Assembly: GCA_018268955.1 (NCBI GenBank)
Contig: JAFDVO010000018.1
Location: 52,576-116,575, forward strand
DNA: 64,000 bases
Reading direction: 5' to 3'
Source of the DNA: Acidobacteriota bacterium
GTDB lineage: Bacteria; Acidobacteriota; Vicinamibacteria; Vicinamibacterales; CAVVIG01
Both the position numbers and the translations under genes were made by a program. The notes beneath the pieces were generated by a model, which saw only the letters and a list, made by a program, of their open reading frames with translations, did not search any database and was not told the origin of the DNA. This document shows positions 1,405 to 4,428 of this stretch, in pieces (position 1 is the stretch's first letter; each line of letters opens with the position of its first letter).

Positions 1405-3111
1405 TCAATCAGCAGACGTCTCCACGATGGGCGACGGGCGGCGAATCATGTTGTGCAGGTCGTTGCCGGCGGGCACCATCGGGAACACCGAGTCTTCCTG
1501 CTCGACGCGGAAATCGATCAGCGCGCCCTTCGTCTGCTGGCGGGCGGTCGCGACGGTGGGCTCCACCTCGGTGCGGGCTGTGACGGTGGCACCCCAGACG
1601 CCGTAGGCCTCGGCCAGCTTCTCCAGTTCAGGGCCGGTGATCGGCGTGGCCGCGTACCGCCGCTGATAGAAGAACTCCTGCCACTGGCGCACCATGCCCA
1701 GGTAGCCGTTGTTGATGACGCAGATCTTCACGTCCAGGTCCTCCTGGACCATGGTCGCCAGCTCGCAGAGCGTCATCTGGAAGCCGCCGTCGCCGACCAC
1801 CACCCAGACTTCCGCATCCGGCTTGCCGACCTTGGCACCGATCGCCGCCGGCAGCGCGAACCCCATCGTGCCGAGGCCGCCGGACGTGATGAGCGACCGT
1901 GGCGACTCGTGATGGTAGTACTGCGCCTCCCACATCTGGTGCTGCCCAACGTCGGTGACGACGATGGCGTTGCCGTTGGTGATGCGCCAGATGTCGTGGA
2001 TGACGTGCGCGGCGTACAGATGGCCGTTGTCCGGCAGGTTCTTGATGTCGCGCACGGCGGCATCGCCCTTCTGGTCGGAGATGTGGGCGAGCCACTTGGA
2101 CCGATCCACCTCCGCCACCTGGTCGAGCCACCCGGCGACCACCTGGCCCACGTCGCCGGCAATCGCCGAGTCGACACGCACGTTCTTGTTGAACTCCGCC
2201 GGATCGATGTCGACGTGGATCTTGCGGGCGTGCGGTGCGTAGGTCTTGATGTTGCCGGTGACGCGATCGTCGAACCGCATGCCGAGCGCGATCAGCAGGT
2301 CCGACTCCTGGATGGCGGTGTTGACCCACGCTTCACCGTGCATGCCCATCATGCCGAGGTTCAGCGGATGCGAGGCCGGGAAGCTGCCGATGCCGAGCAG
2401 CGTCATCGCCACCGGAATCTGTGCCTTCTCCGCGAAGGCCCGTACGGCCTCTTCGGCGCCGCCGAGGATGATCCCGTGGCCCGCGAGAATCACGGGGCGC
2501 TGCGCCGCATTGATGAGGGCGATCGGGTCCGCACCGAAGGAGTGCCCCGAGCGATCGATCGACGCCATGTCCGGCGCCGCTTCGTCCCAGTCCAGTTCGC
2601 AAACGCCGAGCTGCGCGTCCTTGGTGATGTCGATCAACACCGGCCCCGGCCGGCCGTGCTTCGCAATCGCGAACGCCTCGCGGACCGCCGGCGCGATCTC
2701 GCTCGCCTGGGTGACGAGGTAGTTGTGCTTCGTGACCGGCAGCGAGATGCCGGTGATGTCCGTCTCCTGGAACGCATCCGACCCGATGAGGCCGCTGCCC
2801 ACCTGGCCCGTGATGCACACGATCGGCGACGAGTCCATCATGGCGGTGGCCATGCCGGTGATCATGTTGGTCGCACCGGGACCGGATGTCGCAATGGCGA
2901 CGCCGACCTTGCCCGTGGCCCGCGCGTAGCCGTCGGCCATGTGCGTGGCCCCCTGCTCGTGGCGAACGAGGATGTGGCGGATCGGGTAGTCGAGCATCGC
3001 GTCATAGGCCGGCAGGATCGCGCCGCCCGGATACCCGAACACGACCTCGACGCCCTCCCGCACGAGGCATTCCCACAGAATCTGCGCACCAGTCAGTGTC
3101 TTTTTGCTCAT
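1405..3111 (-). CDS. ilvB: Acetolactate synthase large (catalytic) subunit
   Basis: Thiamine-diphosphate enzyme that condenses pyruvate with pyruvate or 2-oxobutyrate, the first common step of branched-chain amino acid synthesis. The 568 residues have the usual three-domain layout. The N-terminal Pyr domain has YPGGAILPAYDAM and the catalytic glutamate in RHEQGATHMADGYA. A central FAD-type domain follows. The C-terminal PP domain has the TPP/Mg motif VGDGGFQMTLCEL...INNG. Length is normal. It lies about 70 nt downstream of pheA and upstream of ilvN, in the transcription unit controlled by the attenuator near 4.1 kb. Confidence 0.97.
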   Translation of the reverse strand: MSKKTLTGAQILWECLVREGVEVVFGYPGGAILPAYDAMLDYPIRHILVRHEQGATHMADGYARATGKVGVAIATSGPGATNMITGMATAMMDSSPIVCITGQVGSGLIGSDAFQETDITGISLPVTKHNYLVTQASEIAPAVREAFAIAKHGRPGPVLIDITKDAQLGVCELDWDEAAPDMASIDRSGHSFGADPIALINAAQRPVILAGHGIILGGAEEAVRAFAEKAQIPVAMTLLGIGSFPASHPLNLGMMGMHGEAWVNTAIQESDLLIALGMRFDDRVTGNIKTYAPHARKIHVDIDPAEFNKNVRVDSAIAGDVGQVVAGWLDQVAEVDRSKWLAHISDQKGDAAVRDIKNLPDNGHLYAAHVIHDIWRITNGNAIVVTDVGQHQMWEAQYYHHESPRSLITSGGLGTMGFALPAAIGAKVGKPDAEVWVVVGDGGFQMTLCELATMVQEDLDVKICVINNGYLGMVRQWQEFFYQRRYAATPITGPELEKLAEAYGVWGATVTARTEVEPTVATARQQTKGALIDFRVEQEDSVFPMVPAGNDLHNMIRRPSPIVETSAD

Positions 3112-3180: not shown

Positions 3181-4038
3181 TTACGCCGGCGTCCCTGCCC
3201 TGTCGGGCGCCGTCTTGCGAGAAGCTGGTTTCGAACTCGGATACGACCCGAGCACCCGGAGCATCGGCGCGAACTCCGCCAGGTGCGCCAGCGCGCGGGT
3301 GCAGGCGAGGTCGTCCCTCGCCGCTGCCAGGTCGACGTAGAACAGGTACTCCCACTTGCGCGCCGGGTTCGGCCTCGACTCCAGCTTCGTCAGGTCGATT
3401 CCGCGCAGCGCGATCGCCGCCAGCGCCTTGAACAGCGCGCCCGGCTCGTTCTTCAGCGTGAACACGACCGTCGTCTTGTCTGCCGGCGCATCGGAGATCG
3501 GCGCCTTCCCGACGACCAGGAACCTCGTCGTGTTCGTGTCGTTGTCCTGGATGGCGGAGCGCACCGCCACCAGGCCGTTGACCTCCCCTGCACGGGCCGA
3601 GGCAATGGCTGCCGCGTCGGTCCAGTGCTGGTCGGCCACGAGCTTCGCGCTGCCGGCCGTGTCGTAGCTCGCGATCACTTCGACGCCGGTGAGCGTCCGA
3701 AGGAAACGGTCGCACTGCGCGAGCGCCTGCGGATGCGAGTAGACCCGCCTGATGTCCTCGAGCCGCGTGCCCGGCAGCGCCAGCAGGTGATGCACCACCG
3801 GCACCTCGACCTCGCCCACGATCGGGAGCTGATGCTCCAGCAGCAGGTCGAAGTTGCGATGAATCGAGCCGCCGATCGAGTTCTCGATCGGCAGCACCCC
3901 GTAGTCCGCTGCCCCACTGTTCACCGCGGCGAACACATCCTCGAAGGCGCGGCACGGCAGCAGGTCGGCCGACGCATTCACCTGCGTCGACGCCGCTTCG
4001 CTGAACGCGCCCGGTTCACCCTGGTAAGCAATGCGCAT
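3181..4038 (-). CDS. pheA: Prephenate dehydratase (monofunctional, with ACT domain)
   Basis: Converts prephenate to phenylpyruvate in phenylalanine synthesis. The 285 residues form a PDT domain (starting MRIAYQGEPGAFSEAA, with the IENSIGGS segment and the catalytic TRF in DNDTNTTRFLVVG) followed by an ACT domain with the ESRP motif (LTKLESRP) and GALFKAL, the Phe-binding elements of allosterically inhibited enzymes. There is no fused chorismate mutase. It is the first structural gene after a Val/Leu attenuator and precedes ilvB by about 70 nt, so an aromatic gene appears placed under branched-chain control. No clear Shine-Dalgarno precedes the ATG. Confidence 0.95.
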   Translation of the reverse strand: MRIAYQGEPGAFSEAASTQVNASADLLPCRAFEDVFAAVNSGAADYGVLPIENSIGGSIHRNFDLLLEHQLPIVGEVEVPVVHHLLALPGTRLEDIRRVYSHPQALAQCDRFLRTLTGVEVIASYDTAGSAKLVADQHWTDAAAIASARAGEVNGLVAVRSAIQDNDTNTTRFLVVGKAPISDAPADKTTVVFTLKNEPGALFKALAAIALRGIDLTKLESRPNPARKWEYLFYVDLAAARDDLACTRALAHLAEFAPMLRVLGSYPSSKPASRKTAPDRAGTPA

Positions 4039-4076: not shown

Positions 4077-4108
4077 AAAAGGCCATCACTCCGTTCCGGA
4101 TGATGGCC
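4077..4108 (-). terminator. Attenuator terminator of the pheA-ilv leader
   Basis: On the minus strand GGCCATCA (4108-4101) pairs perfectly with TGATGGCC (4088-4081). An inner TCCG/CGGA stem with one bulged G extends it, and TTTT (4080-4077) follows. This is an intrinsic terminator about 40 nt before the pheA start. Its ascending arm is shared with the antiterminator at 4096-4144, so the two structures exclude each other. Confidence 0.9.
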
Positions 4109-4144
4109 TCGAAGCATCTGTGCTGCTGGGCTGCCATCATCCGG
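4096..4144 (-). promoter_or_regulatory. Antiterminator stem-loop of the pheA-ilv leader
   Basis: CCGGATGATGGC (minus strand 4144-4133) is the perfect 12-bp complement of GCCATCATCCGG (4107-4096). The first arm contains the leader peptide stop codon, so a ribosome finishing the leader would cover it and let the terminator form. A ribosome stalled earlier, in the Val/Leu codons, would leave it free to pair. CAGCAGCA between the arms could also pair with the CTG CTG CTG leucine codons of the leader. Confidence 0.87.
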
Positions 4145-4226
4145 TGGGCCGGACGACCGTCACGACGACAACGACACCGACGAGAACGTCGGGGTTCGTC
4201 ACGACAGCGTTGGACAGCAGCAGCAT
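4137..4226 (-). CDS. Val/Leu-rich leader peptide of the pheA-ilvBNC attenuator
   Basis: This is a 29-residue ORF (ATG at 4226, TGA at 4139-4137). It begins MLLLSNAVV, has a run of five consecutive valines and then TVVRPTG at the end. Eleven valines and four leucines make up 15 of the 29 residues; there is no isoleucine and no phenylalanine. The composition resembles the enterobacterial ilvB leader (ivbL) but is placed before pheA. Its stop codon lies inside the first arm of the antiterminator, the geometry needed for ribosome-mediated attenuation. A strong -10 element ends 10 nt before the ATG, so the transcript probably starts only a few nt before the start codon and the peptide is read as a leaderless message. 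Confidence 0.9.
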   Translation of the reverse strand: MLLLSNAVVTNPDVLVGVVVVVTVVRPTG

Positions 4227-4235
4227 GTATTTGGA

Positions 4236-4264
4236 ATTACACCGGGTTACGGGAACCCAGTCAA
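4236..4264 (-). promoter_or_regulatory. Sigma-70-type promoter of the pheA-ilv operon
   Basis: The minus strand has -35 TTGACT (4264-4259), a 17-nt spacer and -10 TGTAAT (4241-4236); each box matches consensus at five of six positions. The expected start near 4228-4230 is only 2-4 nt before the leader ATG. Confidence 0.85.
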
Positions 4265-4344
4265 ATTGAAACAATTTACCAGAACATAAGCACGCGAAAT
4301 ACTCTCGTTCTTTCCATAAGCGCCCCGAATATGCGCCTGCAGGA

Positions 4345-4428
4345 GTTCTGAGTCCTGAATCCTAAGATCTGAGTTCTGAATTCTAAGTTCTAACGTCTGA
4401 CGTCTGACGTCTACCGTCTAACGTCCCC
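4345..4428. repeat. Degenerate tandem repeat (ttctgag/aacgtctgacgtc type)
   Basis: About 84 nt of short quasi-repeats that drift from gagttctgag through ctaagttcta to cgtctgacgtctgacgtc. They lie at and just beyond the 3' end of the hydrolase gene. Similar units occur at 15279-15309 and 57651-57695. Confidence 0.65.

Follow-up and report, generated by a model that had tools for sequence, protein, structure and literature searches.

A predicted valine-sensing attenuator before the pheA-ilvBNC operon of an Acidobacteriota bacterium and its relation to similar switches at other amino-acid operons of the phylum

Organization of the locus

The window, that is, the whole stretch of 64,000 nucleotides that was analysed, comes from an Acidobacteriota assembly of 4.77 Mb, placed in the order Vicinamibacterales by its relatives, and carries on its minus strand the genes pheA, ilvB and ilvN and part of ilvC, preceded by a promoter, a short leader reading frame and two overlapping hairpins (Table 1). 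An earlier note on this DNA had placed a complete attenuator ahead of pheA-ilvBNC. The gene assignments were borne out, pheA, ilvB and ilvN scoring above the NCBIfam cut-offs and ilvC being recognized by its translation; the ilvC query sequence also matches the gene that follows ilvB(N) in relatives. The signals described in the note were likewise present: the promoter TTGACT-N17-TGTAAT, which is kept in relatives, the frame of 29 codons, 11 of them for Val and 4 for Leu, whose TGA falls within arm 2 of a perfect 12-bp pairing with arm 3, and the terminator stem, which reuses arm 3 and runs into TTTT. As arm 3 is common to both, antiterminator and terminator are mutually exclusive. A simple promoter scan did not report the site; the scan demands A at the second position of the -10 element, which here reads TGTAAT.

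Table 1. Coordinates in the window of the attenuator elements and of the genes behind them
Feature	Coordinates	Strand	Remarks
-35 element TTGACT	4264-4259	minus	TTGAC(T/A/G) or TGGACT at the equivalent place in relatives
-10 element TGTAAT	4241-4236	minus	17-nt spacer; in relatives mostly TGTAAT/TCTAAT/TTTAAT, spacing 17-18 nt
Motif GTAAATTGTTTCAATTTGACT, running into the -35 element	4259-4280 (limits approximate)	minus	candidate operator or UP element, common to leuA
Leader ORF MLLLSNAVVTNPDVLVGVVVVVTVVRPTG	4226-4137	minus	29 codons plus TGA (4139-4137), ATG 4226-4224; no Shine-Dalgarno
Arm 1 GTCGTCC	4151-4157	minus	in the last Val codons; anti-antiterminator (MFE structure)
Arm 2 CCGGATGATGGC	4144-4133	minus	5' half of antiterminator; holds the leader stop codon
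Arm 3 GCCATCATCCGG	4107-4096	minus	3' half of antiterminator and 5' half of terminator
Terminator hairpin GGCCATCATCCGGAACGGAGTGATGGCC	4108-4081	minus	folding z -4.9; covariation
U tract TTTT	4080-4077	minus	T run 3' of the hairpin in all 20 relatives
pheA, prephenate dehydratase	3181-4038	minus	NF008865 above cut-off
ilvB, acetolactate synthase large subunit	1405-3111	minus	TIGR00118 above cut-off
ilvN, acetolactate synthase small subunit	741-1292	minus	TIGR00119 above cut-off
ilvC, ketol-acid reductoisomerase, N-terminal part	1 to ~565-600 (start approximate)	minus	translation; exits the left end of the window

The usual operon order in the family is pheA-ilvD-ilvB-ilvN-ilvC. In the source genome, and in G001, G016 and G020, ilvD is absent between pheA and ilvB (L077, L089, L092 as against L078-L091). 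Control of pheA by phenylalanine was considered and rejected, the leader frame containing 3.5% Phe against 4.2% and 1.9% in the other frames. Because Phe is not enriched in the leader and pheA usually heads an ilv operon, it looks like a passenger. Degenerate short repeats (TTAGAA/TCAGAC-like) were noticed at 4330-4420 of the window, in the interval that separates the attenuator promoter from the upstream gene.

Conservation before pheA

The gene pheA was searched in 60 related genomes and the upstream regions were read. Within the family, 18 genomes, the source genome being one of them (between L001 and L023), have the promoter, leader and switch ahead of pheA, and an equivalent attenuator is found at L029 and L056, which belong to other families of the order. 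Leader sequences differ among these loci and remain rich in Val, Leu and Ile; in all 20 the stop codon lies in or beside arm 2, with 27-38 nt from the stop to the terminator. At 19 pheA-ilv loci Val makes up 26.9% of the leader frame against 2.7% and 4.8% of the other frames (Wilcoxon p = 6.6e-5).

The pairings are kept as well, with 82.8% paired cells in the antiterminator and 95.9% in the terminator of this set. The terminator has four pairs with double changes, a result matched in 1 of 500 shuffles; compensatory changes are also present in the antiterminator, where they are weaker. At L016 arms 2, 3 and 4 are altered jointly (GACGG / CCGTC / GACGG), and L007 and L009 have short uninterrupted antiterminators of 7 and 5 bp. 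The earlier note had proposed that relatives be compared for Val/Leu conservation and for compensatory changes in the 12-bp arm, and both were found. It had also held that loss of the paired arms in close relatives would refute the mechanism; the arms are kept in the 18 family genomes and are missing from three (L018, L020 and L022, in G003, G006 and G021), which have no attenuator before pheA. These three loci resemble a natural deletion of the attenuator, and pheA itself appears leaderless there.

Start of the leader and the promoter motif

The leader ATG stands 9 nt past the -10 element in the window and 8-13 nt past it in the 20 genomes, without a Shine-Dalgarno sequence. At sigma-70 promoters transcription starts about 7 nt past the -10 element, and the 5' untranslated region is thus expected to be about 1-6 nt long. 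Pairing with the anti-Shine-Dalgarno sequence is weaker 5' of the leader than 5' of pheA (-2.4 vs -5.2 kcal/mol, p = 0.0017). At the three loci lacking the attenuator the same promoter lies about 5-11 nt before the pheA ATG, and the leuA genes of the family share that promoter motif, their ATG standing about 6-9 nt past the -10 element, as read from the sequence. The claim of the note that ribosomes must load here without a Shine-Dalgarno sequence gains support from the spacing, the weak pairing and the leaderless geometry of leuA and of pheA without attenuator, and we infer a leader start near +1 with such loading. The predicted arrangement is less surprising than first supposed, as the ilvBNC operon of Corynebacterium glutamicum is a direct precedent (PMC11857589).

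A motif GTAAN-ATTATCAN-TTTGACTTC overlaps the -35 element of pheA-ilv and leuA in most genomes of the family, and the leuA version GTAATAATTATCAC is nearly palindromic (source genome, L102 around 1500). In 27 genomes of the family a 23-base pattern allowing up to 3 mismatches matched almost no loci other than pheA-ilv and leuA, and the reversed-pattern control gave 0 matches. The motif may be the operator of a common branched-chain regulator.

Folding of the leader RNA

The terminator folds with -20.7 kcal/mol (z -4.9 vs shuffles) and the whole leader with -85.9 kcal/mol (z -5.3). In the free RNA of the window arm 1, GTCGTCC, consisting of Val-Val codons, pairs with GGATGAT of arm 2 (4142-4136), and the computed 1:2, 2:3 and 3:4 pairings form the complete set of a classical attenuator. 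In a model in which the RNA under the ribosome is removed and the rest is folded, the probability of the terminator was 0.99 for the free RNA and 0.99 with the ribosome at the stop codon, and that of the antiterminator was 0.99 with the ribosome stalled at Val24. The folding that the earlier note had suggested as a check thus gave a clean computed switch for the window.

At equilibrium the antiterminator exceeded the terminator for 8 of the 15 branched-chain stall codons of the window RNA. With the full-length RNA at equilibrium, about half of the relatives favoured the terminator at every stall position; when arm 4 was left out as not yet transcribed, every such relative had some stall codons with an antiterminator probability above 0.5, and the switch is therefore probably kinetic in these. 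In the free window RNA, too, the antiterminator is favoured before arm 4 is made (0.86), so that default termination without translation would depend on refolding.

Occurrence of the switch at other operons

A covariance model, R1, was built from the 20 ilv switches only, the sensor codons not being modelled. Members of the shared-switch family were defined by arm 2 GG(A/G)TGA, arm 3 GGCC(A/G)TCA(T/C)CC and arm 4 with a U tract; the common arms read GG(A/G)TGATG / GGCCATCA(T/C)CC / GGTGATGGCC-TTTT. The window fits this definition by construction, being in the training sets of R1 and R2, and independent members were also found. R1 matched 91 of the 162 genomes searched in the order, many of them two to five times. 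No match was obtained in the 31 genomes from the rest of the class. A 396-genome sample of the phylum yielded 39, of which 18 belong to six families that lie outside the order. With permissive filters, 0 of 10 genomes outside the phylum matched.

Downstream genes were assigned by tblastn against named references, and the N-terminal fragments of representatives were checked with NCBIfam. Among the 129 distinct matches in the order, about 120 could be assigned to a gene: the next gene is hom or aspartokinase/thrA in 42, ilvD in 31, pheA in 21, ilvB in 5, a LysR-type gene in 5 and a small open reading frame with the ending GYG(H/F/Y)G(V/I) in about 13, with single cases of ilvA, ileS and a locus near a tetrapyrrole-methyltransferase-like gene. 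Outside the order the switch stands before ilvN, cimA, ilvB, ilvD and ilvA. Nine matches without an assigned gene (L181, L196, L207, L226, L229, L238, L242, L245, L250) may be chance terminators. In the source genome a second copy precedes hom (L151:456-538, contig 48), with a leader containing Thr, Leu and Ile (...APLPTTTLLLTIGSLPLP...). A third candidate there (G000:C47:16860, 28 bits) was dropped, being a hairpin without a leader, and the exact stem pattern occurs in this genome at the ilv copy only. The note had not seen that the same switch sequence is present at other amino-acid operons of the genome and of the phylum.

Leu-rich leaders and the switch precede the small frames (~45-90 aa) ending in GYG(H/F/Y)G(V/I), which in some genomes are convergent with ilvC (L152, L153, L155, L156, L205, L232, L300, L139, L165, L184, L194, L230, L241); those tested had no NCBIfam or Pfam match. 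Switches with branched-chain-rich leaders stand before LysR-type genes (L142/L166, L169, L170, L202, L221), which are candidate regulators of branched-chain genes. A leader with a run of Cys codons (ICPICSCCCTT) and the switch lie upstream of a tetrapyrrole/sirohaem methyltransferase-like gene (L159:300-520), and in one genome the switch precedes ileS, for isoleucyl-tRNA synthetase, with Ile codons just 5' of the arms (L247:200-430).

Leader codons and covariation across operons

The leader codons follow the gene behind the switch. In leaders before hom/thrA, Thr makes up 16.3% of the reading frame, compared with 3.5% and 4.9% of the other two (p = 2.9e-5), and Met is also overrepresented; leaders before ilvD have an excess of Val and Ile in frame; before the GYGHG frames of one family Leu reaches 25% of the leader. 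Examples are MLIVPVRPTMTRTTTITTGDSSGG before thrA (L164), MDSLQLRSVVVVASVGVITPTSSG before ilvD (L161) and the Ile-rich ...LAIIIRSIILPGSGSG before cimA (L253), the start codon being provisional in many leaders outside the ilv group. Since the non-ilv leaders were not used in R1 and sensor codons were not modelled, the match between leader and gene independently supports the family as well as the mechanism.

Covariation was examined in alignment A2, composed of 34 switches from many operons. Its antiterminator has 90.6% paired cells and 22 double-changed cells, against 8.0 in shuffles (reached in 0 of 500), with a covariation score of 0.197 against 0.104; when the partner was slid along by one to three columns, pairing fell to 22-55%. 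These slid controls are as important as the shuffles, because related sequences inflate the counts of double changes. The terminator has 96.5% paired cells. Positions 15 and 70, for instance, are A-U in 20 sequences and G-C in 9.

Proposed mechanism and its significance

The note had inferred that the mechanism of the ivbL leaders operates in this organism, and ribosome-mediated attenuation sensing Val is indeed supported by conservation, covariation, frame-specific codon bias and computed folding. We consider it very likely that the locus is a ribosome-mediated attenuator sensing charged tRNA-Val, and probably tRNA-Leu, and that it belongs to a family built on one switch sequence in Acidobacteriota. 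In the following scheme the start site, loading, stalling and termination are inferred, whereas sequence, conservation, covariation, codon bias, gene context and computed folding are direct results of the analysis. Transcription from TTGACT/TGTAAT would begin at most a few nucleotides away from the leader ATG, and the ribosome would load at the 5' end without a Shine-Dalgarno sequence. With sufficient Val it would reach the UGA in arm 2 and cover that arm, arms 3 and 4 would pair, and RNA polymerase would terminate at UUUU. When Val is short, the ribosome would stall in the Val run and cover arm 1, the 12 bp between arms 2 and 3 would form, and pheA-ilvBNC would be transcribed. Without translation arms 1 and 2 would pair, with termination as the default. 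At other operons, hom of the source genome among them, the same sequence of arms 2, 3 and 4 follows leaders rich in Thr, Ile, Val or Leu.

Taken alone, the pheA-ilv attenuator adds a well-founded case to a mechanism that is already known. An attenuator family that is conserved in sequence and serves different amino acids appears to be undescribed in the open-access literature searched, and it is absent from Rfam 15; a search on Acidobacteria, leader peptides and attenuation, in literature mostly outside subscription journals, yielded no prior description. An attenuator family of Acidobacteriota can now be named, with clear sensors and targets. One switch with exchangeable sensor codons offers a natural test of how attenuators evolve, the near-identical arms allow a test of whether operons interfere with each other, and a reporter could be designed to sense a different amino acid after editing of the leader codons alone. 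Leaderless leaders in another phylum would extend the known range of coupling between translation and transcription free of Shine-Dalgarno sequences.

Origin of the shared switch and alternative explanations

It is tempting to speculate that one ancestral switch was copied among the amino-acid operons of Acidobacteriota while its leader codons were exchanged, which would make these attenuators a paralogous family in which the sensors (Val, Leu, Ile, Thr/Met, perhaps Cys) can be interchanged and a single output sequence is used; we put the chances of this at about even. Sequence comparison would favour descent through the absence of the switch outside the phylum, where few genomes were tested, and through shared positions beyond the core. 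It is also possible, though somewhat doubtful, that the attenuators are real and the similar arms of different operons convergent: arms 2, 3 and 4 must match one another and arm 2 holds the stop, which leaves few good sequences, and such a three-way constraint slows drift. Constrained complementary triples are in fact conserved within trp attenuators at large evolutionary distances (Seliverstov et al. 2005, PMC1262725). Against convergence, constraint alone leaves unexplained the single sequence common to the hom, ilvD, cimA and ilv switches of this phylum, when 0 of 10 genomes from other groups matched, and also the shared positions beyond the core, such as GTAGCC after the stop. The terminated leader RNA could in addition act in trans, so that near-identical switches cross-talk; it might, for instance, pair with arm 3 in the leader of hom. 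In Sinorhizobium the leader RNA rnTrpL reportedly acts in this way, and the arms of two operons in one genome can cross-pair at 8.96 of 10 positions, against 9.20 for their own arms. Similarity among the arms of one genome also lies slightly above expectation (0.874 vs 0.852, permutation p = 0.04); so small an excess may come from relatedness or base composition, and own pairing still exceeds cross pairing (p = 0.046), so that we hold such cross-talk to be quite improbable.

Two further explanations would dispense with a translated leader. The hairpin lies downstream of a minus-strand frame ending at 4418 and might be the ordinary intrinsic terminator of that gene (6301-4418), the Val-rich frame being incidental. 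A conserved promoter and leader, however, intervene between the gene and the hairpin, the Val bias is confined to one frame in 19 loci, and arm 2 covaries with arm 3 although it has no role in a plain terminator, all of which makes this explanation very improbable. A T-box or a metabolite-binding riboswitch might instead be present, as T-boxes are used by the branched-chain amino-acid genes of Firmicutes. These genes also use ppGpp riboswitches (PMC10272879). Neither the window nor 20 family members matched Rfam, and the conserved features are the reading frame and the three arms, with no other conserved structured core, so that this last explanation is hardly credible.

Comparison with known systems

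The attenuator resembles enterobacterial ivbL/ilvB, thrL and ilvL in its three competing arms and in a leader that abounds in the regulatory amino acid, and in E. coli thrL, as here, the stop codon lies in the arm that competes with the terminator. It differs from the enterobacterial attenuators in its predicted near-leaderless start, and to our knowledge no arm sequence is shared among those of different enterobacterial operons. In Sinorhizobium meliloti the leader peptide peTrpL is said to be translated from the leaderless transcript rnTrpL; a leaderless transcript is predicted here as well, for another amino acid and in another phylum.

A close likeness is to ilvBNC of C. glutamicum (IlvL; ilvB-II), which has a Val/Leu/Ile leader without a ribosome-binding site and a terminator, antiterminator and anti-antiterminator (PMC11857589, PMC10272879); its +1 lies one nucleotide from the leader ATG, and translation of the leader was shown by fusion (PMC11857589). 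The branched-chain leader and the ilvBNC genes downstream have their counterparts in the window, as do, by prediction, the near-leaderless start and the three competing folds, in another phylum and with a leader of 29 codons instead of 15. The ilvB-OMG and Leptospira ilvB motifs are proposed to contain upstream frames rich in branched-chain amino acids and Thr before ilvB (PMC10272879); unlike these and ilvB-II, the Acidobacteriota family has no Rfam match. The ilvB-II motif is reported once per genome and only before ilvB (PMC10272879), whereas the Acidobacteriota switch recurs at other operons.
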